This document shows positions 3,712 through 40,076 of a DNA stretch of 64,000 nt, in pieces; the stretch's first letter is position 1; every line of letters begins with the position of its first letter. The DNA is from Thomasclavelia saccharogumia DSM 17460. Its GTDB lineage: Bacteria > Bacillota_I > Bacilli_A > Erysipelotrichales > Coprobacillaceae. Below the pieces are notes generated by a model. That model saw only the letters and a program-made list of their open reading frames with translations, made no database searches and was not told the origin of the DNA. The stretch covers positions 1 through 64,000 of the forward strand of contig NZ_JMLH01000008.1 in assembly GCF_000686665.1 (NCBI RefSeq), given 5' to 3'. A program made the position numbers and the translations under genes.

Positions 3712-6700
3712 TTAATATTTGCGTTTTAATAATGCACCATAATAACTTAGCATGTATTCTAATCTTTTTGTTTCAAGATTGCAATTTATGAATTGACAAT
3801 TTTTTACATTTAACGAATACTCAATATTTTCAAATATATTAAATTTCATCTGATCTATGCTATATTCTATAATTTGATTATCGCTTGAATTACTCAGAAC
3901 GTTTTTTTCATTTTTATTAAAAATTATTGAATGAATATTAATTTGCATATTCTTATTTAATACGCATTTTTGTAAATTTAAATCATGTTTGTTTTCAATG
4001 CTAGCTATATTGATGCTGTTATCATCACACAAGTAGATAAGTTCATTTAATATTTTTCTATAAAGAACACATTTTAAATTGAGATTAGATTTAATAAATT
4101 GTTCGTCATAAAATTCTTTTATAATAACTATATTTCCACTGACTGTCCATAAAATAATACTGTCATTTTGAAAATTAATTCCCTTTAAACAATCATTTTC
4201 AAATTGTTTTTTATATTTTAAAATAAGCATATCATTTTCAAATTGGTGTATTTCTATACTATGTTCATCTCTATAAACGATATATTTTTTATCCCTATAT
4301 TCATAAAATGATATTTTTTTTGTTTTATTTATGGAAAAACTATTTAATAAATAAGATTCATTTTTTTTCTCTAAAAATATATTGCCTTCTCTATCAATAA
4401 TTATAAATTGATTATCAATGGTCATAAAATCAATTATTGAATAATTGATTTTATGTGAATTTATATTATATAATTCATTATTTTTACAATAATAATTGTA
4501 AATGTAATTATTACTTAATATATTTAGAATGCCATTATCTGGGTTATATTTGAATTGTTCAACAAAATCAAATATCTTATTTTTTAAAGATAATTCATTA
4601 ACCAAATCAAAATTATACTTGAACAATAGATTATCTAATGTTAATACAATAAAACAATATTCATTTTTTATTGAAACAACTTTTTTAATACCAAAGTTGG
4701 AAAAATGATTACTAAATTCTTTTATTTCTTTTCCATTATTTATATTGAACACTTTTATTTTTGGTGATGATAGTGAATATATTAATACATATTTACCATC
4801 ATAACTGTAAAGAGAATGGTATAATTCATCAATTACTTTTATTTCATGAAAGTTATCTTTGTTATCTATAGTATATTCTTTGACAGTTCTATCCCACGAA
4901 CTAGAAATAACAGTATTTTTTGTAATATCTATATCTATGTCTTCAATTGCTTTAGTATGATGATCATAGATTATTGCATCTTTAACAATAATTTTTTTTT
5001 GATTAAAGTCTGTTAATTTCCACCCTCTTATTGTACCATCTGCACTACATGAAAATAACTGTTGTGATTTTTTATGATAGCATAGTCCAGTAATTACATC
5101 TTTATGTCCTACATATTCTATAATATTCATATTATCATTTTCCATTCGATGAACAGTATATTCTTTAACAAGATAATCTGTTCCACCAGAAGCAATTCGT
5201 GATTCATCTGGACTATAAGTACAATATGCAACACCATTATTTTTATGATACTTATAAATATAATATGGTTCATCTACAATGTGTATTTCTGGATTATTAT
5301 TTTTTAAAAATTCTACAACATCACCATTGCCATATGAAGCAAGAATGTACTCTTCAGTTTTGTTATAAATTGCATTATTTGCAATTTCTACATCATTATT
5401 ATGATATTCACATAATAGTGATCCTGTATTATAATCGTATTCTCGTATTATTCCATCCAAAGATGAAGTTAAAATAACAGTATTATTGTAGTTATATATT
5501 GCTCGTGTAATAATTCCATTATTACCACCAAATTTTCGATAACCATTTTTTGGGAGTCCTACATCAAATTCAAGAACATCACGCCCAAAACATGCTAGTA
5601 TTTTTTTTCCATCATTTCTGTAAAGTGCATTTTCAACTTCATTATCTGTACCAAAATAAATATACTCTATTTTTTCTGTTTTAATATTCCATTCTTGTAC
5701 TGTTCCATTGCATGATGCGATAACGATTCGATCATTTATTTTGGGATGATAAACTGCACCATTTAAAACAGTTCCATCAAAATCTGACAAAAAGGAATCT
5801 TCTTTAAAAGTACAACTATAAAAATCAGAATTATCATTATCTGTATGAAAATTTATACCTGATAGTTGACAATTTGAGAAATCAAGGTCATAAAATTGCC
5901 CAATAATATTATTATTTTTAGCATTTTTCCATATTTCTAATAAATTTGAAAGTATATAATCATTTTCTTTAGTGTAAAAAGTGCATTTATCCAAAACTTT
6001 ATGTTTTAAGAATGTACCAATAGTATAAGAATTAGTATTGTATTCGTGAAGTATTTCTCCAATATAAGTTAAAATTATAGAATTAAGTTGATTGTTAATT
6101 AATAAATTTTTACCATTATTATTATATTTTAAATCATTAATAATATATTGTGAGGCAAAAAAATCTCTTATATGTTGATGAAAAAATTTATATACCATAA
6201 TATTTTCTTGATCTTTTCTACCAATTAAAATCCTGAGATTATTTCTTAACGTATAGATTAATTGTGCTTCTTTATTGAAATAAGAATTATAAAACTCATC
6301 CATTAAATGCACATCATCAATATCGTTAATGTATATTTCTTGCTTATTATATAATTCAAAATAGTTGTTAATAATAGATTTAAGTTGTAGATGACTAATC
6401 TCGATTTTATCTAAAATAAATACCATTTGATAAGCAATATAGGGTACGACATATTTGAACAATAGGGAAATGTCTTCATAAAATTTAATAGATTTATACC
6501 GTTTATATTGATTGTAAAACTCATTTTTTTTGGAGTATTTGGGGTAAAAGAATATATCTAATAATTCTCCTTTAGTTGATATTTGAGATAAATTCTCTTT
6601 TTTATTTTTTGTTTTTAGTTCAATGTAAATAGTTAGAAATAGAGGAATTGTTAGAATTTTAAACAATTCAATTCTTTCATTTGATACATTAATTTTTTTT

Positions 6701-8865
6701 GTTTTTAAATATTGATAAACCTGTGGAATGGTTAAAGCTTTTAGCTCAATATGGCTTAACTCATCAATATGAATGCCATCATAATAGCGATCACTTATGA
6801 TAATTTGTACATTCTCGAAACGTTTTACATAAGAAATACATTTTTCAGCTATATTTCTTTTAGATTCTGCAATCTCATTAAATCCATCTAATAAAAGTGT
6901 AAAATGCATAGAAAATTCATCTTTCCATAATTTTTCAAATAAATCATATGTAATATCTTCATTTTTTAAATAATAGTCAAAAATATAAACCATTAAACCA
7001 TTATCATTAACATCTTTTTCTTTTAGGTAATTTGAAAAATTGGCTAATTCAATAAAAAAGAAAGTCTCAAAATCATTGTTTTGATTAATATAATTTTCCA
7101 TAATATATCTTAATGTTACTTTTTTTCCTATTCCACCTTCTCCAAATACAAGGCAAGAGCGCCCATTTAAAGTATCCATTAATTTATCTGATGAAATAGT
7201 TTTATTTCTATAATAAAATAATGTGTCAAAATGATCTAACGACAGATATGGCATAATGTTTGTATCTATTTCAAAATTTTTTTTATAATTTACTTTTGTT
7301 AAATTATTTAGTGTATGTGCAATACCAAATATTTGAGGATTATCAAAATAACTTTTCAATATATTATTAATTGAGTTGTAGCTGTTTATATTTTGCTTGA
7401 TTTTACTAATTAAGCAAAATAAATCATTGCTTTGATAATTAATTGTTAACTTTTCTGGGTTAATTTTATTCAAAATGTTAAGTATTAATTTTGTTTTAGT
7501 ATGCAATATATTTGTATTTTCATTTATTTGAATTATTTCTTTCATTTTATTAAATATTTCAATTAAATAGATTGTATATTTTTCATCATCAGAAAAATTC
7601 AAATAATCTTTATTATATACTTTATATAATCCACCACAAAACTCATCTGCTTGTTCTGTAGATAAATTCAATTTTTTAATTGCCTTTTTATCAATATCAT
7701 ATGTAAATACTTCTTTTAATATTAGCATTATTACAGATATTTTATGATTATTTGAAAAAAAATTATTAAAATTATTTTTTAAATAATCTGAAAACTGTTG
7801 ATTATCATTTTCATCTTCAATATATGTTTTAGCAATATCAATAAATTGATATATCTTTATATATTCAATTTTAAAAGGTTTCCAATTTTGATGCTCATTT
7901 AATATTTTATTATCTAAACAATACATTATATTTACAGCTTTTTTTATTGCATCAAAATATTTTTCTTCTTGTGGATGAAATTTATAAAATTTAAAAGAAT
8001 AAATTTCTAAATTATTATTTTTTCGATTATATAATTCTACTAAATCTCTTGCATATTTTATTAAATCATATAAAAATTTATCAAAATTATTTTCATTGAG
8101 CAATTCTGTAATAATATTTAAATTATTAGTTTTATAAAATGGATAACTATCTAAGCTATTCAGTAAATAGTCCTTGACTTTTTCCATAAATCTATTTTGT
8201 ATATATTCAAAAATTTTTTTATATTCGTCTAATTGTTGACGTATTGAAGTATATCTAGCATCATCAATCATTTTATCTTCGATAATATTAAATAGGTTAT
8301 TATTACCTAGAGAAACATTAAGATTAAATAGAAGTTTCCATCTTTTCGTTATATCTGAATAATATGAAGTATAATTATACGTACTTAAATATTTTCTATC
8401 TTGACTTGATGTAAATCCTTTATTATAAAATTCATTACGATCACTAAAATTTTGGGAATCTAAACACAATTCATAAAATAATAATTTTCCGTATTCAGAT
8501 GCACCAATACTTATCCAATTTGGATTTGGATTTTTTAACTTATACGTTCTGTAAATTTCAAAACAGTTACCTTTATTGGTAAATAATGTAATAGACCCAA
8601 TTTTGTAATTAATATCAATCGATTTATCAAAATAGATGTAGGCCTTCTCATAATTGTTTTTAATCTTTTTAAAACTATTATCATCTTTAATATTCAAATC
8701 ACAAAATAATTTAGTTAGTTCTTTTCTTATAATAAGCATAATTTTTTTTATATTAGTTTCATAATCAAAAATTTTTATATTAAAAGATGTATTGATATTT
8801 TCCTGCATAATTGAATTTATTATCGTACGTAAATCATTTATTGTAATATAATCATTTCTATCCAT
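3712..8865 (-). CDS. NACHT-type STAND NTPase with C-terminal WD40 repeats
   Basis: This 1717-residue protein has an unrecognised N-terminal region (1 to about 520). An NTPase follows, with Walker A GEGGIGKK (about 573-580) and Walker B LLLDGFNEI (about 656-664); the D-G-x-[N/D]-E form is typical of NACHT NTPases. After a helical region (about 700-980) comes a short pentapeptide-like stretch (FSNCQLSGINF, about 992-1002), then many WD40-type repeats (about 1028-1680; for example SCSADGTIRGWKL and SSSWDRTVKEYTI), enough for two propellers. It closes with another pentapeptide-like motif (NCQFINCNLETKRLEY). No signal peptide or clear membrane span is visible, so it is probably cytosolic. STAND proteins oligomerise after ligand sensing, and bacterial NACHT proteins include antiphage factors. 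The start is supported by AGGAGA about 9 nt upstream. The effector activity is not evident; a regulatory role is the alternative. Confidence 0.85.
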   Translation of the reverse strand: MDRNDYITINDLRTIINSIMQENINTSFNIKIFDYETNIKKIMLIIRKELTKLFCDLNIKDDNSFKKIKNNYEKAYIYFDKSIDINYKIGSITLFTNKGNCFEIYRTYKLKNPNPNWISIGASEYGKLLFYELCLDSQNFSDRNEFYNKGFTSSQDRKYLSTYNYTSYYSDITKRWKLLFNLNVSLGNNNLFNIIEDKMIDDARYTSIRQQLDEYKKIFEYIQNRFMEKVKDYLLNSLDSYPFYKTNNLNIITELLNENNFDKFLYDLIKYARDLVELYNRKNNNLEIYSFKFYKFHPQEEKYFDAIKKAVNIMYCLDNKILNEHQNWKPFKIEYIKIYQFIDIAKTYIEDENDNQQFSDYLKNNFNNFFSNNHKISVIMLILKEVFTYDIDKKAIKKLNLSTEQADEFCGGLYKVYNKDYLNFSDDEKYTIYLIEIFNKMKEIIQINENTNILHTKTKLILNILNKINPEKLTINYQSNDLFCLISKIKQNINSYNSINNILKSYFDNPQIFGIAHTLNNLTKVNYKKNFEIDTNIMPYLSLDHFDTLFYYRNKTISSDKLMDTLNGRSCLVFGEGGIGKKVTLRYIMENYINQNNDFETFFFIELANFSNYLKEKDVNDNGLMVYIFDYYLKNEDITYDLFEKLWKDEFSMHFTLLLDGFNEIAESKRNIAEKCISYVKRFENVQIIISDRYYDGIHIDELSHIELKALTIPQVYQYLKTKKINVSNERIELFKILTIPLFLTIYIELKTKNKKENLSQISTKGELLDIFFYPKYSKKNEFYNQYKRYKSIKFYEDISLLFKYVVPYIAYQMVFILDKIEISHLQLKSIINNYFELYNKQEIYINDIDDVHLMDEFYNSYFNKEAQLIYTLRNNLRILIGRKDQENIMVYKFFHQHIRDFFASQYIINDLKYNNNGKNLLINNQLNSIILTYIGEILHEYNTNSYTIGTFLKHKVLDKCTFYTKENDYILSNLLEIWKNAKNNNIIGQFYDLDFSNCQLSGINFHTDNDNSDFYSCTFKEDSFLSDFDGTVLNGAVYHPKINDRIVIASCNGTVQEWNIKTEKIEYIYFGTDNEVENALYRNDGKKILACFGRDVLEFDVGLPKNGYRKFGGNNGIITRAIYNYNNTVILTSSLDGIIREYDYNTGSLLCEYHNNDVEIANNAIYNKTEEYILASYGNGDVVEFLKNNNPEIHIVDEPYYIYKYHKNNGVAYCTYSPDESRIASGGTDYLVKEYTVHRMENDNMNIIEYVGHKDVITGLCYHKKSQQLFSCSADGTIRGWKLTDFNQKKIIVKDAIIYDHHTKAIEDIDIDITKNTVISSSWDRTVKEYTIDNKDNFHEIKVIDELYHSLYSYDGKYVLIYSLSSPKIKVFNINNGKEIKEFSNHFSNFGIKKVVSIKNEYCFIVLTLDNLLFKYNFDLVNELSLKNKIFDFVEQFKYNPDNGILNILSNNYIYNYYCKNNELYNINSHKINYSIIDFMTIDNQFIIIDREGNIFLEKKNESYLLNSFSINKTKKISFYEYRDKKYIVYRDEHSIEIHQFENDMLILKYKKQFENDCLKGINFQNDSIILWTVSGNIVIIKEFYDEQFIKSNLNLKCVLYRKILNELIYLCDDNSINIASIENKHDLNLQKCVLNKNMQINIHSIIFNKNEKNVLSNSSDNQIIEYSIDQMKFNIFENIEYSLNVKNCQFINCNLETKRLEYMLSYYGALLKRKY

Positions 8866-10593: not shown

Positions 10594-10617
10594 GGGGCGG
10601 ACGATGGGGATCGAACC
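10594..10617 (-). other. tRNA 3'-end fragment, probable attachment-site scar
   Basis: Read on the minus strand the segment is GGTTCGATCCCC followed by ATCGTCCGCCCC: a T-arm half (GGTTCGATCC) directly joined to a 3' acceptor strand. The 5' two thirds of a tRNA are absent, as no D-arm or anticodon arm follows on the minus strand. Integrative elements commonly duplicate a tRNA 3' end at their boundary, so this is probably an att core. It lies 120 bp before the first gene of the plasmid-like region. No second copy was seen elsewhere in the window. Confidence 0.5.
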
Positions 10618-10637: not shown

Positions 10638-10682
10638 AAAAAAGTAAAGGGTGTCAGTAAGATGACACCTTTTACTTTTTTT
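10638..10682. terminator. Strong, probably bidirectional terminator
   Basis: A long stem pairs AAAAAAGTAAAGGGTGTCA with TGACACCTTTTACTTTTTT around a 6-nt loop, with a T run on one side and an A run on the other, so it can act on both strands. It insulates the plasmid-like region beginning at 10714 from upstream transcription. Confidence 0.85.
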
Positions 10683-10713
10683 AATTAATTAATTCTTGGA
10701 GGGTTTATTAATC

Positions 10714-11640
10714 ATGATTACAAACGGGGATTATGTTAAATATGATATTTTTCCTACTGCTGAGTCAGTATGGGAGTTTCTTAATAAAGGAATTATTTAT
10801 TCAAAGATTGAAAATTTTCGTGATGAAATCACGAAACTAGTTGAGTATAAAAAAGCCAATTTGTATGGCTATAAGCAAAAAGAAGGTAAACGTAAGTATG
10901 AAAATATTTTCGCGCATTCCTTAGAAATATTAATACCTAAATGTATTTCAGATGATCAATATGATCAGTTTATTCATAAGTACATTGTTAATCTAGATAA
11001 ACGCTTTAAAAACTTACTTTATGTATATAAAAAGGCAACAAGACATGATGCGCGATATTGTATGGTGATGCTTTTTCCTAGGTATGTATATAAGAAAAAG
11101 CATTATCGGACGCAAAAATGGACTTTTGATTATTGGTGGAATCCAAAAACGAAAAAAAGATCTAAGCCTAATGATCCGCAATCTATCTTACTGCACAAAA
11201 AAGGTGATGTAAAGCTAGATAAAGATGGGAAACCGATAAGAAAACTTTTAGATGTAAAAGCAAAGGCCGAACGCGTATTTACATATAGTAGTTTTAGAAA
11301 ATTCAGTAATAGGCTGAAAGAAAAATTACTTTTAACAACTACTGAATTTGAAGGAGGGAAAGACAGCTATAAAAGAATTTCAAAGATAACAGTAAATTCT
11401 GATGATAGCAAATTAGTAAAAAAACTTAAGATAAAGCGCAATAGCTTTATTGAAGGAATAAATCGCTATTTATTTAACTACCAAGAGTCAGCAGTAATGA
11501 TGAGGGCAGAAGACTGGTTAGATGAGAAATTAGAAGACTTTTATATAGCAGTGAATCGCATGATTCATGTTGATAAGATTGAAGGTCATAAAGTTCTATC
11601 TTTTGTTAAAGAATGGTGGATAAATGAAGTTTTAGATTAA
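10714..11640 (+). CDS. Basic protein of unknown function at the left end of the plasmid-like region
   Basis: The 308-residue protein begins MITNGDYVKYDIFPT at an ATG preceded by GGAGGG (10699-10703); a TTG at 10696 overlaps that site and is not a credible start. It is rich in Lys, Arg, Tyr and Trp (for example YKKKHYRTQKWTFDYWWNP, about residues 128-146) and probably binds nucleic acid. I recognise no replication-initiator, relaxase or integrase motif, although its place beside parA, parB and a primase would suit a replication or mobilisation role. No membrane segment is visible. The next gene, parA, is 400 bp downstream beyond a highly structured region. Confidence 0.6.
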   Translation: MITNGDYVKYDIFPTAESVWEFLNKGIIYSKIENFRDEITKLVEYKKANLYGYKQKEGKRKYENIFAHSLEILIPKCISDDQYDQFIHKYIVNLDKRFKNLLYVYKKATRHDARYCMVMLFPRYVYKKKHYRTQKWTFDYWWNPKTKKRSKPNDPQSILLHKKGDVKLDKDGKPIRKLLDVKAKAERVFTYSSFRKFSNRLKEKLLLTTTEFEGGKDSYKRISKITVNSDDSKLVKKLKIKRNSFIEGINRYLFNYQESAVMMRAEDWLDEKLEDFYIAVNRMIHVDKIEGHKVLSFVKEWWINEVLD

Positions 11641-11718
11641 TAAATTTGCAAATAATGCATGTTTATATATTCGAGATCTTTAACAATTTAATAGGATTGA
11701 TTAATACTTTTACTGCAA

Positions 11719-12005
11719 AAATGAGCTGTGACAAAATAGCGCCACGACCTTGTTTCGCAAGCGAGCGATTATATTATTTATGTCAATTATTCTTAGCAAG
11801 AATAAGCCATGATCTTTTGTAGGATAATGATACTCTCGCTTTGCTATTTGCAAAAATAGGAGTGAATAGACCATAAGAATGGATATCTGATCTTTACCCG
11901 CTCTTTAAATAGATGGTAAATCAGGTGAGATGTAGCTACACATCGTTAATCAATTCAGCCCTCGGTGGGCAATTAATGCGTTTTTATACAATTCGCATTA
12001 ATTAT
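11719..12005 (+). ncRNA. Candidate structured non-coding RNA or structured leader upstream of parA
   Basis: This gene-free interval is richer in G+C than its surroundings and packed with perfect short helices, in order: CTTG/CAAG (near 11749), TTATTCTT/AAGAATAA (near 11788), a nested ACTC…CTATTT/AAATAG…GAGT, CTGAT-TTACC/GGTAA-ATCAG around an AT-rich loop, GATGT/ACATC, GCCC/GGGC, and AATTAATGCG/CGCATTAATT (to about 12002). TGACA near 11727 can also close with TGTCA near 11780. I cannot assign a known family. It could be a free RNA, a replication-control or origin region, or a long parA leader. The strand is assumed from the flanking genes. Confidence 0.5.
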
Positions 12006-12046
12006 CTACTGAAAAGTATTTTAAGTTATGAGAGGAGGATTTTATT

Positions 12047-12919
12047 ATGAGAATTATTTCAGTTATTAACGAAAAGGGAGGTGTTGGTAAAACAACTGCA
12101 GCAGTCAATATTGCATGTGGATTTGCAAAATCTTTAGCTGCTAAAGGAGAAAAAGTACTTTTAATAGATATGGACGCACAAGGAAACGCAACTAAATATT
12201 TTATGCCAGAGTATAAATCTATATCTTTAAAAGAATTTAATAGTTTGCAAGTTTCTAAAAATACAGATATTAGAGAATCGGTTTCAGTTATAAAAAAGAC
12301 ATTGCGTAAAAATCTTGGAGAGAGGGCGGACATAAATACTCTTCTTTTAAATGGTAAAGAAGTTATAAGAAAATGTATCTTTAAAACTGACTATGATGGG
12401 CTTTCAATTATCCCCTCTTTAGAAACCCAACTGATTAAAACAGATAAATTACTTGCTGCAAGCACGGGGCAAAGACATGCTATTTTAAAGCGTGCTTTAA
12501 GAGAAGTAAGAAATGAGTATAATTATGTAATTATTGATCATGCTCCTACTTTTAATAATATTACTGTTAATGGTCTTTTCTGTTCAAATGAGGTCATTAT
12601 ACCGATCAAACCAGGAGGATTTGAATTGGGCGGATTTATTGATACTATGGAGGAATTGTTCAATATTGAAGATGATTATGAATGTGAGTTTAAAATCAAG
12701 ATTTTGATGAACATGATTCCAAGAGGAAATCGTCCAGATTATTTAAATTATATTAAAAAGATGAGGGAGTTTTTTAAAGAAAATGTGATAGATACTACTA
12801 TTGGATTTCAAGATGCAGTTGCATCTCGTTCTACAATGACATCTAAAGTATTAATTTACGATTCTTCAAAAATAGGTAACGATTATCGAAATCTTATAAG
12901 TGAACTTATAAATAACTAA
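12047..12919 (+). CDS. parA: ParA-family partition ATPase
   Basis: The 290-residue protein opens MRIISVINEKGGVGKTTAAV, carrying the deviant Walker A motif KGGVGKT with its signature lysine (about residues 10-16). VLLIDMDAQGNAT (about 40) is the A' motif, and VIIDHAPTFNN is the Walker B-type strand. ParA-type ATPases form dynamic gradients on the nucleoid that position plasmids or chromosome origins together with ParB and parS. There is no N-terminal HTH, so it is of the short type and autoregulation would need another protein. The start codon follows GAGAGGAGGATTTT. parB lies about 400 bp downstream with a small gene and repeats between, arguing for a plasmid-type par locus. Confidence 0.93.
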   Translation: MRIISVINEKGGVGKTTAAVNIACGFAKSLAAKGEKVLLIDMDAQGNATKYFMPEYKSISLKEFNSLQVSKNTDIRESVSVIKKTLRKNLGERADINTLLLNGKEVIRKCIFKTDYDGLSIIPSLETQLIKTDKLLAASTGQRHAILKRALREVRNEYNYVIIDHAPTFNNITVNGLFCSNEVIIPIKPGGFELGGFIDTMEELFNIEDDYECEFKIKILMNMIPRGNRPDYLNYIKKMREFFKENVIDTTIGFQDAVASRSTMTSKVLIYDSSKIGNDYRNLISELINN

Positions 12920-12931
12920 GGAGTTATATAG

Positions 12932-13177
12932 ATGAAGGCTTTTATTTATATCGCTGGTAAAAAAGATATTGAAACGATTAAAAGTATCAATAGAGCAATG
13001 GATAATGGAATTAAAAATACTTATACAATCAATAACATTAAGTATAGCTGTTATATAGCATTTCAGAACGGTAACATATGTATTATGTTTAGCGACCATG
13101 GTCTTATTGCTGAAAAATACAATTTAGTCTGTATTAAACATATACAAATAGATAGTAAAAAATGTCATTATTTATGA
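12932..13177 (+). CDS. Small protein of unknown function in the par locus
   Basis: The 81-residue protein begins 12 bp after the parA stop behind TAAGGAG, so it is translated from the parA transcript. It is a compact mixed alpha/beta sequence (MKAFIYIAGKKDIETIKSIN…) with no signal peptide or membrane span, and I recognise no family. Its stop codon lies inside the terminator stem that ends the transcript. The position between parA and parB suggests an accessory partition role, but nothing in the sequence proves it. Confidence 0.65.
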   Translation: MKAFIYIAGKKDIETIKSINRAMDNGIKNTYTINNIKYSCYIAFQNGNICIMFSDHGLIAEKYNLVCIKHIQIDSKKCHYL

Positions 13178-13186
13178 CATTTTTAT
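13157..13186 (+). terminator. Rho-independent terminator of the parA transcript
   Basis: The stem AAAAATGTCA / TGACATTTTT with a TTATTTA loop and T-rich tail overlaps the 3' end of the preceding 81-codon gene. Confidence 0.85.
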
Positions 13187-15755: not shown

Positions 15756-16436
15756 ATGAATAAGAAAAAAATGTTTCTTTTAGCATTGCTTTTAATAATA
15801 AGTACAGCTTGTACAACAAAAAATGCTGAAATAAAAACAAATCATAAAGATGTATCAATAGAAAATAAATCGGATGCAGTATTTATATTTACAAATGAAT
15901 TTCAAACGTCATTGACTGGATTTGATTTTTATTGGCCAATACCAAATAAATCGTGGAATAAAATCGTCTCAAATAAAGAAGATGATTGCATAATTTATGA
16001 AAATAAATCAAATAAAATCTATCTTTTAAAGAATATAGATTTGAAAGATTGTGCAGGAGCAAATATATATGATGAAAATTATTATGATTATCTTAAAGAA
16101 TTAAATGGAAATGAAATACCGTATTATCTTTCAAATATTTTTAAAAAGTATTTGAAAGTAGATTATGAGGAAGGTTTTAATGAAAACTCTAATAAAATTG
16201 TTTATTCATCAAATAAGAAAAAATTTTATCATACTTCTGGAAAAGCAAAAATTAATAAACAAAATGTTTATTATGAGGCTGTTTTTTTTCAAGGTAATTA
16301 TAATGTACCATCAATATGTTCCTTATATTCACCAACCGTTTTTATGATAACATATAATGACATAAATGATAAAAACGCAGTAGTAAATATGGTAGAAGAA
16401 TTTCAGGAAAAATTATTTTTTAATGCTGACGAATAG
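15756..16436 (+). CDS. Predicted lipoprotein of unknown function
   Basis: The 226-residue protein has a classic lipoprotein signal, MNKKKMFLLALLLIISTACT, with lipobox STAC, so Cys20 or close to it should be lipidated and the protein displayed on the outer face of the membrane. The mature domain (…NEFQTSLTGFDFYWPIPNKSW…) is rich in aromatic residues and has no recognised family. AAAGGAGGTAAAA precedes the ATG. It begins 12 bp after the primase-like gene and ends inside a strong palindromic terminator, closing that operon. Confidence 0.75.
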   Translation: MNKKKMFLLALLLIISTACTTKNAEIKTNHKDVSIENKSDAVFIFTNEFQTSLTGFDFYWPIPNKSWNKIVSNKEDDCIIYENKSNKIYLLKNIDLKDCAGANIYDENYYDYLKELNGNEIPYYLSNIFKKYLKVDYEEGFNENSNKIVYSSNKKKFYHTSGKAKINKQNVYYEAVFFQGNYNVPSICSLYSPTVFMITYNDINDKNAVVNMVEEFQEKLFFNADE

Positions 16437-16462
16437 ACATGGCAAATTTGCCATGTCTTTAT
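16435..16462 (+). terminator. Rho-independent terminator (perfect palindrome)
   Basis: AGACATGGCAAA pairs with TTTGCCATGTCT without a separate loop, followed by TTATT. It overlaps the last base pairs of the lipoprotein stop codon. Confidence 0.85.
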
Positions 16463-20350: not shown

Positions 20351-20384
20351 AGCAATGTTACCTAAAGTAACATTGCTTTTTATA
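20351..20384 (+). terminator. Rho-independent terminator or attenuator upstream of the XRE gene
   Basis: A perfect 10-bp stem (AGCAATGTTA/TAACATTGCT) with loop CCTAAAG is followed by TTTTAT. It lies only 25 bp upstream of the XRE regulator start codon, so it either ends incoming transcription or attenuates the regulator. Confidence 0.75.
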
Positions 20385-27498: not shown

Positions 27499-30400
27499 AT
27501 GAAAAAAATAATACGAAATTGGAAACAGCTGATCATTGTTATGGCAATGATTTTTAGTGTTATATCTACAAATTTAAGTACAGTTAGTGCTGATGGAGGT
27601 ACAGTTAGTTTCACATGGGGTGAAGAGATCATGTATCCCAGCTGGCTTGGGAACTGGAGTACGAAAATGTGCTATATTGATGGAAAGCTAGCGTACTGTT
27701 TAGAAGCCAGTAAGGATACGCCTCCAGAAAATCTCAATGCATCTTATGTGATTGTAAATAACGAAGCACTGCTTAAAGTTTTATATTACGGTTATGGTGG
27801 ACCTGCTGATGTATTTAAGGATGATACAGTGTCGACAGATAGGGAAAAATATTTATTTACACATATCATGGCCAGTTATGCCTACAGTGGTGATCTATAT
27901 GGGGGCAATACCTGGGATTATTTGACCAGTATTGGTGTTGGCTTGAAAACAAGATATGATCAGATTCAATCGCTGCCTCTTCCAACTAATACATTGACTT
28001 TTAATGGTTCAAATGATTTTACAACTAGTGCATATTTTGATGAGTCAGGTAAAAAACAAAGAACAGAGGATATCACATTAAATACTAGTGAATCTGCCAC
28101 TATCAATATTCCATTACAGGATGAAGTTGAACTGCATAATGTAACAAAAGGAACTGTTAGTACTGGAACTGTCGCTGTAAATGGTGGTGATACTTTTTAT
28201 TTGAGTGCGCCAATGAAAGTTTTAGATGATTATTCTAGTAATTGGCTAACTGCTGATGGTTTGTTGAAATATGCTCCTTTAGTTATTCAGGGAACGGGGA
28301 ATTATCAAAGTGAAGGAACACTAACTTATTATCAAGATCCAGAAACTTTGCGACTAAATGTCAATTGGTTAAAAGTCGGTTCTTTAGAACTTACTAAAAC
28401 TAATACTAATAAAGACTTGATCGATGGGGCTGTTTTTAATTTAAAATCAGTATCTTTTGATGGTTATGATGAAAATATTACAGTCACTGATGGTAAGATC
28501 AAAGTTGATAATCTGCTTGCCGGTACTTATAAATTGAAGGAAGTTTTGGCTCCTGATGGTTATCTCCTTGATGAAACAGAATATGAAGTTACTATCAATG
28601 TCGGTGAAACTACTTCTAAAGTAGTGGAAAATAATGAACCTACTGGTTCTGTTTCACTGACAAAAGAGATCAATACCGCTCTAACTGACGGCAAGTCCGG
28701 TGATGCTTATTTACAGGGCAATGAGTATAAACTTATCGCAAGAGAAAATATTACCAATAAGGCTGATACAGTTACTTATTTTAATAAAGGTGATGTCGTC
28801 GATACTCAGACAACTGATAATGCCGGTAAATTAGTATTTGATGATCTGCATATCGGTAAATATTATATCGAAGAAAGCAGGAGCAATGAATCATTAGTGT
28901 TGAATTCTAAAGATATCAATGTCGATATTGAATATGAAGGACAGACTGTTTCTAAAGTTCTACGCTCTACCAATACTGATAATCGTGTCAATATGCAAAA
29001 GATTCAGATCCATAAATCAGGTGAAAAAGACGGTATAAGCGGTCTTGTTAAAGGACTGCAGGGGGCTGAATTTACTTTCAAATTAAAAAGTGAAGTAGAC
29101 CATGTAGGCTGGGATAACGCTGAAGTATACGATGTCATTACTACTGATGAAAATGGTCAAGCTAATACTAAGTATCTGCCTTATGGTGAATATTTAGTTC
29201 GTGAAACAAAAACACCTAAGGATTATATCACGGCACCTGATTTTACAGTATCAGTGACTAAAGATTACAGTGAATATCCTGATATCGCGCAAATCAAGAT
29301 CATTGATATCAATAATCGCCCTTATACAACCCAGTTAAAACTTGTTAAAAAGGACCTCGACAGCAATAAGACTGTTACTTTGAATAGTGCAACGTTTAAA
29401 GTAAAAGCCAGAGAAGATATTGTTTCTAATGGTAAGATCATTTATAAAGCCGGAGAGACGATCAAACAAAAAGTTGGCGGTAAGACTTATGACAGTTTTA
29501 CGACATCTGCAGATAATGTAGTGATCCCATCAGGGTCTTACAATGTTAATGACAGTGATAAAGGTACAATAGTTTTACCATTACAGTTAGATGCCGGTAA
29601 ATACTATATCGATGAAATAAAGACACCGACTGGTTATTTATCATTAGAAGATAGAGTTGAATTTGATGTCGAAAACATCAGAGACTATGATAAAGATCCT
29701 GATGGTGATCCAATTCTTGAAATAGTCATTAAAAATGATAAGCCGGTAGGAGAATTGGAAGTATATAAAGATGTATCATATGGAATATTGGCAGTACCTA
29801 ATTCTTTAGAAAGAGCGCATTTAGGTGATGGATATGATTTTGTTGACAGATCTGATCTAAGTAAGATCAAGTTTAGACTGACAGCTAAAGAAGATATCTT
29901 AGATATGGCTGATGGCAGTATCATTTATGCCAAAGGAGCTCTTGTAGGAGAATATAATTTAGATCGCAGTGGATACTTGAAGGTATCTGATCTGCCGATG
30001 GGAATATATGAACTGCAGGAGATCGAAACATTAGATGGTGTAGTATTAGATGAAACTAAATATGAAGTCAAATTTGAACAGACAGATCTAACTACTAAAG
30101 TTTATAATGTTACTAAAGAACTTGTAAATGAACCAACGATCGTTGAAATAAGTAAAACTGATGTTACTGGTGAAGCTGAATTACCAGGAGCCAAGATGAG
30201 TGTTAGTGACGATGAAGGAAATATCATTGCAGAGTGGATTTCAGGTGAAAATGCGATGGTCATTCAGGGACTTAGTGTAGGGAAAACTTATACATTGAAA
30301 GAAGATCTTGCACCACTGGGATATGTTCAGGCTAAAGAAATTAAATTTACTGTAGCCAGTACTACAGATATTCAAAAAGTCCAGATGATCGATAAAGTTG

Positions 30401-31488
30401 TAACAGTAAGAAAAGCTGAAACAAATGGAAAAGCAGTAGAAGGAGCCGTGTTACAGGTCGTATCGAATAAAACGAAAAATGTTGTCGATCAGTGGACAGT
30501 TGATGCAGGTGGAAATCATAATGTAAGAGGACTGCTTGCAGGTGAAATATATATTTTAAAAGAAATCAATGTACCAAAAGGATATGTAAAAGCAGATGAT
30601 ATGATGTTTACAGTTGTAGATGATAATAAAGATCAAATGATTGAAATGACAGATAATCAAGTTCAGGTCATTAAAGAAGATGAGGAAGGCAGTTTATTAA
30701 AAGGGGCCAGACTTCAAGTCATCAATAATAAGACGAATGAAATTGTTGATGAATGGATCAGCGGCAGACATATTATTGATATAAGTAAAGAAATGAAGTC
30801 ACTTTTACAAAAGGGAGAGACCATAAATGATATGTATATTGATGAAGAAGATTCATCAGTATTATACAGAATCACACCAAATAAAGATGCCAAAGATTAT
30901 ACATTGATGCTGCAGTCTAATGGTGAAACAGAATATTATCGTATCGATATTGAAGGGAATGAAACCAGTCATTTAGTAAGAGGATTAAATCAAAATGATG
31001 AGTACTTACTTAAAGAAGTGGAAGCACCAAAAGGCTATGCAACTGCAGATACTCAGGAGCTAAAAGTTGATAATAAAGATATTGTATTGAAGATGGTAGA
31101 TGAAATAACGAAAATCGAGATTTCTAAATTAGATATCACAACATCAAAAGAATTACCGGGAGCGCATTTACAGGTGAGTGATGAAGAAGGGAATATCGTA
31201 GACAGCTGGATTTCTGGTGAAGAGGCACATATGATCAAAGGGTTATATGTAGGAAAGACTTATACTTTGACAGAAACGATTGCGCCTGATGGTTATCAAG
31301 TAGCTCAAAGTATTGAATTTACTGTTGATGATACAGGAGATATTCAAAGAGTTGAAATGTATGATGATTTACTAATACTACCTGAAACGGGAGATAATAT
31401 GAGTATTGATTCAATTATTCAAATGTGTTTATTATCAGGAATAGTATTTTTAGGTATTTATATCTATTTGAAAAGAGAAAGTGTTTAA
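27499..31488 (+). CDS. LPxTG-anchored SpaA/Cna-repeat surface adhesin
   Basis: The 1329-residue protein has a signal peptide (about 1-32). Its N-terminal head (about 35-290) contains KLAYCLEASKDTPPENL, typical of TQXA/thioester-type heads, although the usual Gln-containing motif reads FTHIMASYAYSGD here. About nine SpaA/Cna-B-type repeats follow (293-1285), each with a Lys-containing first strand (GSLELTKTN, TIVEISKTD, KIEISKLD) and a late Glu (YKLKEVLAPDGY), so isopeptide bonds are expected. The sorting signal LPETGD (about 1294) is followed by a hydrophobic helix and KRES. It should be covalently attached to peptidoglycan by a sortase and bind host or partner surfaces. It is the last gene of the plasmid-like region; a terminator follows. 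Confidence 0.93.
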   Translation: MKKIIRNWKQLIIVMAMIFSVISTNLSTVSADGGTVSFTWGEEIMYPSWLGNWSTKMCYIDGKLAYCLEASKDTPPENLNASYVIVNNEALLKVLYYGYGGPADVFKDDTVSTDREKYLFTHIMASYAYSGDLYGGNTWDYLTSIGVGLKTRYDQIQSLPLPTNTLTFNGSNDFTTSAYFDESGKKQRTEDITLNTSESATINIPLQDEVELHNVTKGTVSTGTVAVNGGDTFYLSAPMKVLDDYSSNWLTADGLLKYAPLVIQGTGNYQSEGTLTYYQDPETLRLNVNWLKVGSLELTKTNTNKDLIDGAVFNLKSVSFDGYDENITVTDGKIKVDNLLAGTYKLKEVLAPDGYLLDETEYEVTINVGETTSKVVENNEPTGSVSLTKEINTALTDGKSGDAYLQGNEYKLIARENITNKADTVTYFNKGDVVDTQTTDNAGKLVFDDLHIGKYYIEESRSNESLVLNSKDINVDIEYEGQTVSKVLRSTNTDNRVNMQKIQIHKSGEKDGISGLVKGLQGAEFTFKLKSEVDHVGWDNAEVYDVITTDENGQANTKYLPYGEYLVRETKTPKDYITAPDFTVSVTKDYSEYPDIAQIKIIDINNRPYTTQLKLVKKDLDSNKTVTLNSATFKVKAREDIVSNGKIIYKAGETIKQKVGGKTYDSFTTSADNVVIPSGSYNVNDSDKGTIVLPLQLDAGKYYIDEIKTPTGYLSLEDRVEFDVENIRDYDKDPDGDPILEIVIKNDKPVGELEVYKDVSYGILAVPNSLERAHLGDGYDFVDRSDLSKIKFRLTAKEDILDMADGSIIYAKGALVGEYNLDRSGYLKVSDLPMGIYELQEIETLDGVVLDETKYEVKFEQTDLTTKVYNVTKELVNEPTIVEISKTDVTGEAELPGAKMSVSDDEGNIIAEWISGENAMVIQGLSVGKTYTLKEDLAPLGYVQAKEIKFTVASTTDIQKVQMIDKVVTVRKAETNGKAVEGAVLQVVSNKTKNVVDQWTVDAGGNHNVRGLLAGEIYILKEINVPKGYVKADDMMFTVVDDNKDQMIEMTDNQVQVIKEDEEGSLLKGARLQVINNKTNEIVDEWISGRHIIDISKEMKSLLQKGETINDMYIDEEDSSVLYRITPNKDAKDYTLMLQSNGETEYYRIDIEGNETSHLVRGLNQNDEYLLKEVEAPKGYATADTQELKVDNKDIVLKMVDEITKIEISKLDITTSKELPGAHLQVSDEEGNIVDSWISGEEAHMIKGLYVGKTYTLTETIAPDGYQVAQSIEFTVDDTGDIQRVEMYDDLLILPETGDNMSIDSIIQMCLLSGIVFLGIYIYLKRESV

Positions 31489-34271: not shown

Positions 34272-37200
34272 ATGGAAAGAATGGAAAGGAGATTATTTAA
34301 GATTTTTATTAGTGCTGTATTGGGATATTCAACAATTATTACTAGTTTTCCAGGATTATATGCTCAGAGTCAAACTACTAATAGTGATGAAGAAATTACT
34401 TTATGGCAGGAAAGTTTTGAAGGTTCACAGGATGAGTTTATAAATTCATTAGTGGATGAAGACAAGGGAAGTAAAAATGTAAATCGAATTCAAGATGAAA
34501 CAACACTTGAAGGTGATATTATGAGGTTTTTGGATTTGGGATCAATAGAAGCTTCAAAGCCACATAATTCAACCGAAATTGTTGATAATCTATTTGATGG
34601 AACGACGGTGTCAAAGTTTTTAACAAATGCAAATGTGCCTAGCTTAGATAATCCGATTTGGGTAAAATTTGCTTTAAGTCAGGGAATATCTATTAGTCGT
34701 TATCAGATAGCTAGTGCAAATGATTTTGAAAGTAGAGATCCAGCGTCATGGAAATTATATGGTTCAATAGATGGGATAACATATGATCTTATTGACGAGC
34801 AAAATGACATTATTTTTAATGATAGATATGAAAGAAAGACTTTCGATTTAGCTGGGGTTACAAATAAATATCAATATTATCGACTTGATATTACAAAAAA
34901 TCGTGGAAATGGGGAAATGACCCAGTTTTCAGAAATTGTTTTAGGTAGTGATGAAGAATTTTTGGAAGAAAATGAACAAGAAGGTATGACGACAAAGATC
35001 GTTGGAGGTCCAATTTCAGCCTGGGTCGGAGCCCAGGGTGTAGGCTGGAGTGGTGATAAATCATTAGAAGTTAGTGGAATTCATTATGGAAAAGAACGTG
35101 GATATTCATATAATAAACTTTATGATTTAAGTAATCAAAATATTGTTGTCACAAAAGATACAAAGCTGGAATATATGATTTTTCCAGATTTGATTGATGA
35201 AGCTGATTATGATTATAACTATACTCAGATGCATATGGCAGTAGATATAAAATTCACAGATGGTACATATTTGAGTGATTTAAAGGCTTTAGATGATCAC
35301 GAAAATGTACTTGCTCCAATGGAACAAGGTGATAGTCGAACTTTGGTAACTAGACAATGGAACCATGTAAGTGGAAATATTGGCAGTGTTGCTTTAGGTA
35401 AGAAAGTTGATAGTGTTTTAATTGGTTATGATAATGATAAAAATGATCAGTTCCCAGAAGATCGTGATTATCGAGCATTTCGTAGTTATTTAGATGATAT
35501 ACGTATTTATCAAGCAAGTGATCCTGTGTATGAGCATTTAGCTGATTATGTAAATATATTACGAGGAACTAATGATTCACCTGATTTCTCTCGGGGATTA
35601 AATGTTCCAGCTGTTACTTTACCACATAGCTTTAATTTTTGGGTACCGGCAAATACTCAGGTGAATGGTCGCGGATATGCAGAACAAAGAAAGATATATA
35701 CTTATCAAGAAAATGATAATTATTTTAAACATATGACCGTTAGTCATGAAGCGAGCTATTGGGTTGGTGATCGTGGTACATGGCAATTTATGGTCAATAC
35801 TTCGATTGATCCAAAAACGGGGACATTTGGAGTAGATGAAAGAAAAGTTCCTTTTTCACATGATAATGAAATTGCAAGAGCATATTATTATGGAATTACA
35901 TTTGATGAAGGTTCTAATGCATCTAACACTAAGATGGAGCTTTCACCAACTGATCATGGGGCAGTAGTTAGATTTACGTTTCCGCAGGATGCTAAATATA
36001 AAAATGTAATTTTTGATTCTTTATATGGAAATAGTAACGAACCAAATACAGAAATTTTAGAATATGATGAAGAAACAAACAGTTTTAAAGCATTTACTAA
36101 TGATACAAGTAATGGCATTGGAATGAAAGGAATGTATATTTATGGTACTTTTGATAAACCAATGACTTATTCTAGAGCTGTAGATGGAAAGCAGGGCGTG
36201 GCTTCTTTTGAAGATGATGTAGTAGAAATGAAAGTAGCAACATCTTTTATAAGTTTTGATCAAGCTAAACATAATTTAGAATTAGAAATAGCAAGTGATG
36301 ATACATTTGATACGATTTATGATCGAGCATTAAAAACTTGGGATGATAAATTAGATGTTATTGAAGTTGAGGGTGGAACATTTGATCAAAAAGTATCATT
36401 ATATTCTAATATGTATAGAATGTTTATGTATCCAAATTTATTAAGTGAAAATGTTGGAACGAACGAAGATCCAGAATGGCAATATTCAAGTCCATATGGT
36501 GGAAGTAATACTGAACCAGAAATCAAAGATGGTAAAATGTATTACAATAATGGATTTTGGGATACTTTTAGAGCAGCATGGCCAGCATATAATATTTTTT
36601 CAACAGATATGAGCAGTGAGCTAGTAAATGGTTTAGTACAACATTATAAAGATGTTGAATGGGTACCTAGATGGTCAGCACCTGGAGGTACATACTTTAT
36701 GTCAGGTACTAGTAGTGATATTGTCTTTGCTGATGCAATGGAAAAAGGAATTGAATTTGACAAAGAAGATGCATTTAAATCAATGATTAAAAATGGTGCA
36801 GTTGTATCAAAAGATGATAATTATGGAAGAAAACAACTAACAACATCAATATTTAGAGGTTATACTTCAAAAGAACAAGATTGTGGTTTTTCATGGTCGA
36901 TGGAAGGTTATATCAATGATTTTGGAATTGCTAAAATGGCAGAAGATCTAGGTTATGAAGATGAAGCGGCATATTATGCTAATCGTTCTTTAAATTACGT
37001 TAATTTATTTGATAAACAAGGTGATGATGTTGATGAAATGTGGTTTAAAGGTAAAGATGCTTCAGGTAACTGGTATGGACCAAGTCTTTATGGAAGCGAT
37101 ATTTTTGATCCGTTATATTGGGGTGAAAATTATGATGAGACAAATGCCTATAACATGGCGGTTACAGTTCAACATGATGGTCAGGGATTAGCTAATCTTT

Positions 37201-40076
37201 ATGGAGGTCGTGATAAACTTGCTGAAAAATTAGATTCTATTTTTGAAACAAAAGGTGAAATAAACGGATGGGGCAGTGATATTAATGGTGTTGGTTATGG
37301 ACATAAAGAGTTAAAAGAAGCTCGAGAAGTGAAAATGGGTCAATATCATCAATCAAATCAACCAGCAAATCATATTATTTATATGTATAACTATGCTGGA
37401 CAACCTTGGAAAACTCAAAAATATATTCGTGATTCATTACAACGTTGTTTTATTGGAAGTGAAGTAGGTCAAGGAATGATTGGCGATGAAGATAATGGTG
37501 GAATGGGAGCATGGTATGTATTTAGTGCTCTAGGTTTCTATCCAGTAACTGTAGGTAGTGATGAATATGCGATTGGTTCGCCACTGTTTGATAAAACAAC
37601 GATTCATTTAGATAATGGTAATGATATTACAATTCGCGCTAATGGTAATAGTAAAGAAAATGTTTATATTCAATCTATGACTTTAAATGGTGAAACTTAT
37701 AATAAAAACTATTTACGTCACGAAGATTTGATGAATGGTGCGGATATTGTAATGGAAATGTCTAATACACCTTCTAAATGGGGAAGCGCTGAAGATAGTG
37801 TTCCAACATCAATTACTAAAGGAAATGAGGTAGCTGATCCTGAAGAAGATGTGACCTCAAAAGATGTGCATGTGACAGATAGAATTACTGGTGATGTATA
37901 TTTAAATAGTGCAAGTGCTCAAAATATCGAAGATGTTAAAAATTTATTTGATAACACATCTGATACTAGTGCAAAATTAACAAAAGATGGTTCTGAACTG
38001 ATTTACAGTTTTACTAAACCACAATACGTTGATATGATTACGCTTACTTCTGCAAAAGAAGGTAAAGCTCCTGATAGTTTTAAAGTATATGGTTCTAATG
38101 ATGCAAATGAGTGGCAATTGATAGAAACGAGAAGTGATTTAGAATTTACCTGGTCACAATATACAAGACCATTCATCATTCATCAGGCTGATAAATATAA
38201 GCATTATAAAATAGAATTAACTGGTGGTGAAAATTTAGCTGAAATTGAGTTATTTTCACAATTAGAAGATTTAAATGAAGTAACTTTGGATGATTTAAAA
38301 GGACTAGTAGCACACAGTGAAAACGTTGATTTATCAAATAGTCATGAAGAAGTAGTCAAATTAATTCATCAAAGAATTGATGAAGCTAAGGAAGTAATAA
38401 ATCAAGAAGGGGTTGAAGCAGAAAAAATGAGACAAGTTTATCAAGCTTTACAAAAAGCATTGCAAGCTATATCTTCAACTAGTTTAGCTTATGAAAAACA
38501 AGAAGCTGAAAATTATAATAGTCATTCTGGAATAGTTAATGATGGACCAAATATTGGAAGTTTAAATCCTGGTGATTGGGTTTGTTATTACGATATGATT
38601 TTTGAATCAAACGCTAACTTTTTTGAATTATATTATTCTGTTGAAGACTTCACTCAATGTGATAATCCTTTGATTGAGGTTCGTTTAGATAGTCGAGATA
38701 ATGATCCAATCGTAACATTTGTACCACAAAAAACAGGAACTTGGAAAGATTATATATATGGTAGTACAATGTTTGATTCATCACAGAATATTCAAGGTGT
38801 TCATGATGTTTATTTAACATTTAGCGGTGATGTAAAAGCTGGTGAAAATGGTGGACTAGCAAGACAAAATGTAGCTAATATCGATTGGTTTAGCTTTAAA
38901 GAATTAATATCACTTGATGTAAAAGAAATGGAACACGGAAAAGTTTTAAATGAGGATCTGACAGTTGAATATGGAAAAGATTATACAATTAACTTTGTTC
39001 CTGATGAAGGTTATGTTTACGATCAGATCTTAATTGATGGTAAATCATTTGAAGGTAAAGTAGAAAATAATAGTTTTACTTTAGAAAATATTAAAAAGGC
39101 TCATGAAATCGTTATTACATTTAAATTAAAAGATGAACAACCAGTTAATAAAAGTGACTTGAAGATTGCTGTAGAATTAGCCAATAATATAACCGAAGAA
39201 GATTTAGAAAAAGTTGTTCCAGTAGTGGTAGCTGAATTTAAGATTGCTTTACAAGAAGCAAATAACGTTTTAGCAGATGAAGCAGCTAGTCAAGAAACAG
39301 TCGATTTAGCGTTTAGTCGTTTAGCCAATGCAATGCATATGCTGGAATTCTATAAAGGTGATAAAACAGAATTACAAAATTTGATCAATCAAATAGAAAA
39401 ATTAGATGTAAATAATTATACAGTGGATTCTTGGATGGCATTAACAGAAGCATTACAAGAAGCTAAAGATGTAATTGATAATGAAAATGCTTTAGAAAGT
39501 GATGTTGAAGAGGCTTATAAAAATTTAAGCAATGCATTTACAAGTTTGCAATTACGAGTAGATAAAACAAGATTACAAAATTTTGTTGATAGTGTAGAAG
39601 ATTTGGATAAAAACAAATATACAGATACATCATGGGCTCGATATGAATTAGTATTACAAAAAGCAAAAGATGTTTTAACAAAAGAAGATGCAACACAGTC
39701 AGAAGTAGACAGTGTATATAATGAAATCATTAAAGCATACTTGGATTTAAGACTAAAACCAAATAAAGATGCTTTAAATGAATTAATTAATAAAGCTAGT
39801 TTATTGAATAAAGCAAATTATAGTGAAGCATCATGGAAAGTAATGCAATCAGCATTAGAAGAAGCTAAAAATGTTTTAGTTGATCCAGAAGCAAATGAAC
39901 AAGAAGTAAAAGCAGCTGTAGAAATATTAGAAGCAAGTATCGAAAAATTAGAAATGAAAACAAGTATAAAAAAAGAAGCTGTGAAAACTGGTGATACAAC
40001 AAGCATGTTTAGTGCATTAGGATTGATGGCATCATTGAGTGCGGTTGCATATCTTTCAAAAAAAAGAAGAAAATAG
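34272..40076 (+). CDS. Cell-wall GH92 alpha-mannosidase with carbohydrate-binding and FIVAR modules
   Basis: The 1934-residue protein has, in order: a signal peptide (about 1-32); an F5/8-type C domain (about 92-230); GH92 N-domain (from about 426, LNVPAVTLPHSFNFWVPANT) and catalytic domain (WDTFRAAWPAYNIFSTDM at about 763; GDEDNGGMGAWYVFSALGF at about 1071, carrying acidic catalytic residues); a second F5/8 C domain (about 1188-1331); a CBM6/35-type module (about 1408-1545, YEKQEAENYN); and four FIVAR repeats (about 1620-1900). The C-terminus, VKTGDTTSMF plus a hydrophobic helix and KKRRK, is a sorting-signal-like anchor lacking the usual proline. GH92 enzymes are calcium-dependent exo-alpha-mannosidases acting on N-glycans, mucins or yeast mannan. 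It is monocistronic. Confidence 0.93.
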   Translation: MERMERRLFKIFISAVLGYSTIITSFPGLYAQSQTTNSDEEITLWQESFEGSQDEFINSLVDEDKGSKNVNRIQDETTLEGDIMRFLDLGSIEASKPHNSTEIVDNLFDGTTVSKFLTNANVPSLDNPIWVKFALSQGISISRYQIASANDFESRDPASWKLYGSIDGITYDLIDEQNDIIFNDRYERKTFDLAGVTNKYQYYRLDITKNRGNGEMTQFSEIVLGSDEEFLEENEQEGMTTKIVGGPISAWVGAQGVGWSGDKSLEVSGIHYGKERGYSYNKLYDLSNQNIVVTKDTKLEYMIFPDLIDEADYDYNYTQMHMAVDIKFTDGTYLSDLKALDDHENVLAPMEQGDSRTLVTRQWNHVSGNIGSVALGKKVDSVLIGYDNDKNDQFPEDRDYRAFRSYLDDIRIYQASDPVYEHLADYVNILRGTNDSPDFSRGLNVPAVTLPHSFNFWVPANTQVNGRGYAEQRKIYTYQENDNYFKHMTVSHEASYWVGDRGTWQFMVNTSIDPKTGTFGVDERKVPFSHDNEIARAYYYGITFDEGSNASNTKMELSPTDHGAVVRFTFPQDAKYKNVIFDSLYGNSNEPNTEILEYDEETNSFKAFTNDTSNGIGMKGMYIYGTFDKPMTYSRAVDGKQGVASFEDDVVEMKVATSFISFDQAKHNLELEIASDDTFDTIYDRALKTWDDKLDVIEVEGGTFDQKVSLYSNMYRMFMYPNLLSENVGTNEDPEWQYSSPYGGSNTEPEIKDGKMYYNNGFWDTFRAAWPAYNIFSTDMSSELVNGLVQHYKDVEWVPRWSAPGGTYFMSGTSSDIVFADAMEKGIEFDKEDAFKSMIKNGAVVSKDDNYGRKQLTTSIFRGYTSKEQDCGFSWSMEGYINDFGIAKMAEDLGYEDEAAYYANRSLNYVNLFDKQGDDVDEMWFKGKDASGNWYGPSLYGSDIFDPLYWGENYDETNAYNMAVTVQHDGQGLANLYGGRDKLAEKLDSIFETKGEINGWGSDINGVGYGHKELKEAREVKMGQYHQSNQPANHIIYMYNYAGQPWKTQKYIRDSLQRCFIGSEVGQGMIGDEDNGGMGAWYVFSALGFYPVTVGSDEYAIGSPLFDKTTIHLDNGNDITIRANGNSKENVYIQSMTLNGETYNKNYLRHEDLMNGADIVMEMSNTPSKWGSAEDSVPTSITKGNEVADPEEDVTSKDVHVTDRITGDVYLNSASAQNIEDVKNLFDNTSDTSAKLTKDGSELIYSFTKPQYVDMITLTSAKEGKAPDSFKVYGSNDANEWQLIETRSDLEFTWSQYTRPFIIHQADKYKHYKIELTGGENLAEIELFSQLEDLNEVTLDDLKGLVAHSENVDLSNSHEEVVKLIHQRIDEAKEVINQEGVEAEKMRQVYQALQKALQAISSTSLAYEKQEAENYNSHSGIVNDGPNIGSLNPGDWVCYYDMIFESNANFFELYYSVEDFTQCDNPLIEVRLDSRDNDPIVTFVPQKTGTWKDYIYGSTMFDSSQNIQGVHDVYLTFSGDVKAGENGGLARQNVANIDWFSFKELISLDVKEMEHGKVLNEDLTVEYGKDYTINFVPDEGYVYDQILIDGKSFEGKVENNSFTLENIKKAHEIVITFKLKDEQPVNKSDLKIAVELANNITEEDLEKVVPVVVAEFKIALQEANNVLADEAASQETVDLAFSRLANAMHMLEFYKGDKTELQNLINQIEKLDVNNYTVDSWMALTEALQEAKDVIDNENALESDVEEAYKNLSNAFTSLQLRVDKTRLQNFVDSVEDLDKNKYTDTSWARYELVLQKAKDVLTKEDATQSEVDSVYNEIIKAYLDLRLKPNKDALNELINKASLLNKANYSEASWKVMQSALEEAKNVLVDPEANEQEVKAAVEILEASIEKLEMKTSIKKEAVKTGDTTSMFSALGLMASLSAVAYLSKKRRK

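Follow-up and report, generated by a model that had tools for sequence, protein, structure and literature searches.

A conserved structured RNA precedes the parA gene in the analysed stretch of Thomasclavelia saccharogumia DSM 17460 (64,000 nucleotides, hereafter the window). By sequence, structure and covariation it belongs with the class of RNAs that includes canT of the conjugative transposon Tn916. The Rfam pemK RNA (RF02913) and canT are parts of one RNA. Judged from its sequence, the window RNA is probably a cis-acting antiterminator of the canT type, placed within a mobile element at the head of the parA-parB operon.

Structure of the RNA upstream of parA

A sequence-only reading of this DNA had pointed to a gene-free gap of about 400 bp with excess secondary structure and a G+C content above the local average. 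All three observations hold. The gap between the gene for a 314-aa protein and parA is 406 bp long (11641-12046). Region 11700-12020 folds more stably than any of its dinucleotide shuffles (100 per strand; z = -3.47 for the plus and z = -3.52 for the minus strand). The G+C content is 35.9% in 11719-12005, compared with 28.5% for the window as a whole and 20-22% in non-coding DNA close by. The abundance of perfect hairpins, which the same reading considered remarkable, is ordinary: five non-overlapping stems of at least 5 bp are present, while shuffled sequences contain 3.4 +/- 1.4 and 93 of 500 reach the same count.

The interval that had been singled out, 11719-12005, is indeed structured, but the conserved RNA begins further upstream, at 11675, with a boxA that forms no hairpin. 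It spans about 11675-11956 of the plus strand and, together with the sequence just 3' of it, has the following parts:

11675-11693, plus strand: boxA-like element GATCTTTAACAATTTAATA, identical to the boxA of the family at 17 of 19 positions; within model match 1-165
11694-11705, plus strand: 5' strand of P1, 12 bp with 11945-11956; pairing in the window ranks 1 of 31
11713-11720, plus strand: 5' strand of P2, CTGCAAAA, pairing with TTTTGTAG at 11815-11822 (helix 1 of the model alignment)
11729-11738, plus strand: 5' strand of P3, pairing with 11775-11785 (TGACAaAATA / TATTTATGTCA; helix 2 of the model alignment)
11740-11748, plus strand: conserved motif CGCCACGAC, whose CGC pairs with the GCG of GAGCGA (helix 3, 98.7% of cells paired)
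11749-11761, plus strand: P4 hairpin CTTG-TTTCG-CAAG (helix 4, changes on both sides at 3 of the 3 pairs counted)
11763-11768, plus strand: motif GAGCGA, conserved in the family comparison
11786-11806, plus strand: P5 hairpin (helix 5 of the model alignment)
11807-11813, plus strand: motif CCATGAT, conserved in the family comparison
11815-11822, plus strand: 3' strand of P2, TTTTGTAG, ending just before the core ATAATGATAC
11824-11833, plus strand: near-invariant core ATAATGATAC, which the inactivating canT(S3) mutation alters in Tn916
11824-11865, plus strand: divergent 3' domain of the pemK type (15.2 bits, Rfam cut-off 34.8)
11945-11956, plus strand: 3' strand of P1, pairing with 11694-11705; end of the conserved RNA
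11958-12003, plus strand: two more hairpins 3' of P1 (11958-11970 and 11971-12003), with no U-tract and outside the conserved RNA

P1 links the base just 3' of boxA to the 3' end of the RNA; it replaces an enclosing helix proposed earlier (11703-11711/12012-12020), which was rejected because the family does not conserve it. P3, the CGC/GCG helix, P4 and P5 all lie inside the span of P2. Both P1 and P2 are long-range helices and are missing from the single-sequence MFE fold of the window.

Homologues and covariation

Other genomes of the family encode relatives of the proteins that flank the gap on either side. Collecting homologous loci, a check proposed with the first description of the gap, revealed that relatives with a long gap (L023, L024, L025, L032/L048 and L033/L047) share with the window a series of motifs in the same order: boxA-like GATCYTTRACAATTKAATA, GAGCTG, CGCCAYGAC, GAGCGA, CATGAT and ATAATGATAC. 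The series is absent from short-gap loci (L026-L028, L046); thus, the RNA is a module that is gained or lost relative to parA. Close relatives of parA in four genomes (G036, G016, G014 and G290; L043-L046) have a gap of 120-140 nt and no RNA, and serve as natural RNA-less controls. At one locus (L034, G018:C157) the order is parA, a relaxase-like gene and the RNA; since parA lies upstream, the RNA there is linked to the relaxase-like gene, not to parA.

Scanning viral contigs with the pattern GCCATGATN{8,13}ATAATGATAC yielded 17 stretches, about nine or ten of them with the complete motif series. The pemK RNA was matched in seven of the eight stretches examined (61-74 bits), and a boxA-like CTTTGAMAA is found at the 5' end of nearly all loci scanned. 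BLASTN of the gap against plasmids, phages and 43 genomes of the family gave noise only, searches for ParA and for the upstream protein in viral contigs, plasmids and phages found neither, and a scan of genome contigs with the ParA alignment returned generic ParA proteins only.

A covariance model, R1, was trained on 16 loci from which the window and all rep-parA relatives had been excluded. It matches the window at 11675-11837 of the plus strand with 65.3 bits (E = 4.9e-15), and the second-best match in the 64 kb has 14 bits; R1 was calibrated on little sequence, which makes its E-values approximate, but the two scores lie far apart. The complete 3.1-Mb genome contains only two clear matches, in the window and on contig C18. 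The second copy (L191, G000:C18:4986-5157, 76 bits) follows sigma-factor and orf8-like genes, an arrangement also found in Tn916, and precedes a serine recombinase. Relatives that had been found through their proteins (L023, L024, L025, L034, L047 and L048) match R1 with 27-66 bits, and the short-gap parA loci gave no R1 match. In a phylum-wide sample the RNA is largely confined to this order and certain other families of the class; short AT-rich matches (40-70 nt, in small genomes) were taken as false positives. The RF02913 model has at least one match in about a quarter of the searched genomes of the order (78 of 295), with up to 10 copies per genome.

Compensatory changes, likewise suggested as a check, are strongly evident. 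In the R1 alignment, which comprises 54 matches (51 of them distinct), 84% of the cells pair, and 302 cells are changed on both sides, compared with 103 in shuffles and at most 99 with slid partners; none of 500 shuffles was as good, though the alignment was fitted to the model and so leans towards its helices. A duplex test independent of this alignment compared the pairing of each strand with its own partner and with those of other sequences. Among 31 non-redundant sequences, none of 20,000 permutations was as good for P1 or for P2, and the result holds with a stricter redundancy filter and after removal of the window and the helix-defining loci. MAFFT with RNAalifold misaligned P2 in divergent members and found just six pairs; for this reason, the helices were derived by hand comparison and then tested by permutation and by the model alignment.

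These data bear on the idea that the gap holds a plasmid replication-control RNA, an origin or a parS-like centromere, as its position between a possible Rep/relaxase gene and parA might suggest. The covariation is strand-specific and of the RNA type, there are no iterons or tandem repeats, and the RNA is absent from the parA relatives with short gaps. Moreover, the same RNA precedes genes with no replication role (xis, serine recombinase, parB-like and pemK genes). We regard this explanation, whose replication-control and origin forms were among the early candidates, as barely credible.

The pemK RNA and canT as parts of one RNA

A search of the window against Rfam, the remaining check proposed at the outset, found no family at threshold. 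The pemK RNA scores below its gathering cut-off at 11824-11865 (E-value 3.3, counting all 4227 Rfam families); the match has the expected position and strand, beginning at the core of the larger RNA, and the pemK start AUAAUGAUAC stands where it should. The loci read show the 61-nt pemK motif as the 3' portion of a longer RNA that begins with boxA, and strong pemK loci carry the same 5' domain upstream. By contrast, RF02913 models 61 positions and is typed Cis-reg, with neither boxA, P1-P5 nor a link to antitermination. The initial remark that no known family was recognised is superseded: the RNA joins the pemK RNA, through the 3' domain, and canT.

The Tn916 sequence was taken from pCTN1046 and pCF10. 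Its orf8-xis gap starts with boxA and scores 55 bits for the pemK RNA and 105 bits for R1, the latter value not being independent because the identical sequence L096 was in the training set. In the Tn916-like locus itself, L096, Rfam SQ2397 ('Cis-regulator of HTH transcription factor', 230 bits) is found upstream, at 52-281. The orf8-xis gap is canT, a cis-acting, orientation-specific, processive antiterminator, most likely an RNA, which acts on its own terminators as well as on foreign and distant ones (Wirachman and Grossman 2024, PMC11658703). The authors left the structure of canT open and named neither boxA, Rfam nor pemK (PMC11658703).

The inactivating mutation canT(S3) replaces ATA by TGC; counted from the orf8 stop, the change begins at nucleotide 283 (PMC11658703). 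The stop codon ends at L097:1040, so that the mutation falls on L097:1323-1325, the first three bases of ATAATGATAC, and its position coincides exactly with the core. The deletion canT(delta162), nucleotides 229-390 (L097:1269-1430), begins immediately 3' of GAGCGA and takes in the pemK domain. S3 had little effect in a shorter, 400-bp canT fragment (PMC11658703); thus, the need for the core depends on the context.

The window RNA and canT share boxA, P1-P5, the ATAATGATAC core and a 3' domain of the pemK type. Both head a mobile-element operon behind a co-directional gene, with a strong terminator near the end of the element. They differ in the genes that follow, xis-int of a tetracycline-resistance conjugative transposon for canT and parA-parB for the window RNA. 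Furthermore, canT reads across the closed att junction; the window RNA has a divergent 3' domain, and its antitermination activity is predicted.

In the literature that could be searched, the pemK RNA has so far stood in Rfam as an orphan motif with no function attributed to it, and canT has been a single characterised element whose fold was not interpretable by its authors. Joining the two provides a comparative structure for canT and an explanation of its best mutant, and points to boxA as the likely loading site. The open-access literature yielded no paper that connects the pemK RNA, canT and boxA; as far as this incomplete search goes, the link appears to be new.

Genomic context and predicted function

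The features around the RNA are as follows:

10595-10617, no strand assigned: copy of the 3' end of tRNA-His, an att-like boundary; the intact tRNA-His(GTG) is on contig C31
10638-10681, no strand assigned: strong symmetrical, insulator-like terminator hairpin that separates the tRNA-His repeat from the upstream gene (-24.7 kcal/mol)
10696-11640, plus strand: upstream, co-directional gene for a 314-aa protein whose fold weakly resembles that of HUH relaxases (best E 0.009)
12047-12919, plus strand: parA (290 aa, AAA_31), the first gene downstream of the RNA
13158-13184, plus strand: candidate intrinsic terminator, a hairpin with a U-rich tail, between the 81-aa ORF and parB (-10.3 kcal/mol)
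16435-16458, plus strand: candidate intrinsic terminator further down the operon (-15.7 kcal/mol)
20351-20377, no strand assigned: candidate terminator downstream of the RNA

A Shine-Dalgarno-like GAGGAGG (12032-12038) precedes parA, which is followed by the 81-aa ORF, parB, an unknown ORF, a TOPRIM primase-like gene and further genes. From about 20 kb onward the genes look chromosomal. The tRNA-His repeat and the hairpin at 10638-10681 look like the marks of an element boundary, and relatives carry a tRNA gene immediately before the same module. The 314-aa protein belongs to a family that is conserved beside parA, in many cases a short way behind a tRNA gene, and has a weakly MobA/MobM relaxase-like fold. 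The intact tRNA-His(GTG) gene (L190 1494-1569) is located beside an ORF that resembles the C-terminal part of a tyrosine recombinase.

On the predicted antitermination mechanism, the nascent RNA would form as the polymerase leaves the upstream gene. Its boxA (11675-11693), by the consensus of rRNA operons an rRNA-type NusB/S10 boxA, would recruit NusB/S10. The assembly yielded no 16S gene, and the agreement at 17 of 19 positions is with the boxA of the family, not with the host rrn boxA. The folded body (P1-P5, the core and the 3' domain) would stay bound to the polymerase and confer resistance to terminators. Consequently, parA, parB and the genes past the terminators at 13158-13184 and 16435-16458 would be expressed only from transcripts that traverse the RNA. 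A search for sigma-70 promoters just upstream of the RNA found nothing convincing. Downstream terminators number 20 in 42 kb at parA loci with the RNA and 12 in 40 kb at those without it, which is no difference, and sense terminators downstream of the RNA are no more frequent than antisense ones; with a density no higher than at RNA-less loci, the terminator argument is neutral.

The same-strand genes directly downstream of the RNA include excisionases (xis), serine recombinases, ParA, ParB-like proteins, PemK/MazF toxins and TnpW-like proteins; they were named by eye from sequence, with one TnpW annotation under such a match. This variety fits an antiterminator heading mobile-element operons better than a leader of the next gene only, that is, a cis-regulatory attenuator or riboswitch-like element. 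The latter is how Rfam's Cis-reg type would present the pemK RNA, and it accords with the location of the RNA directly upstream of a gene and near a ribosome-binding site; the early suggestion of a long parA leader came close in the sense that the conserved RNA sits within that leader. Nevertheless, a single metabolite or autoregulator would not be expected to control genes so diverse, none of the hairpins at the 3' end of the window RNA has a U-tract behind it, and the Tn916 member is processive and acts on distant and foreign terminators. We consider a single-gene leader unlikely.

Another early candidate, a large noncoding RNA of mobile elements, also came close, in that the RNA is conserved and belongs to such elements. 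A rival reading is a free-standing, trans-acting RNA similar to GOLLD or ROOL that stands before parA by chance. The RNA is large, ornate and present in many mobile elements, and its long closing helix P1 could be processed. Yet the window has no intrinsic terminator before the downstream gene, a co-directional gene follows closely at nearly every locus where this could be called, canT acts in cis, and there is no Rfam match to GOLLD/ROOL-like families. This makes a trans-acting RNA very unlikely.

The antitermination reading has parallels in several known systems. In rRNA operons, too, a boxA (NusB/S10/NusA/NusG/SuhB) stands 5' of a long structured untranslated RNA; the rrn complexes are described as chiefly blocking Rho, whereas the window RNA has an elaborate body and intrinsic terminators are its expected targets. 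Processive antitermination of long operons by RNA is also the function of EAR (eps operons), the put RNA of HK022 and conAn1/conAn2 of pLS20, the last from conjugative plasmids of the same phylum as the window. The Rfam search placed the window with none of these at threshold. R1 found no match in the whole of pLS20 (best 13.5 bits), so conAn2 is either a different RNA or an unrecognisably distant one.

It is fairly likely that the pemK RNA, canT and the parA-leader RNA constitute one hitherto unrecognised class of boxA-loaded, RNA-based processive antiterminators, which would borrow the host rRNA antitermination machinery and drive operons for excision, recombination, partition and toxin-antitoxin systems across mobile elements of Bacillota. 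Control by RNA-based antitermination is thus predicted for many operons of plasmids, conjugative elements and prophage-like elements, including a ParAB partition operon.

Elsewhere in the window, a 1717-aa protein (3712-8865, minus strand) has, by eye, a P-loop/NACHT-like segment and WD40-like repeats; it matched nothing in PHROGs or NCBIfam and is possibly a defence protein. Two large surface-type proteins are encoded further downstream, one with a thioester domain and eight SpaA repeats (27499-31488) and the other with a GH92 glycosidase accompanied by CBM6 and FIVAR domains (34272-40076).
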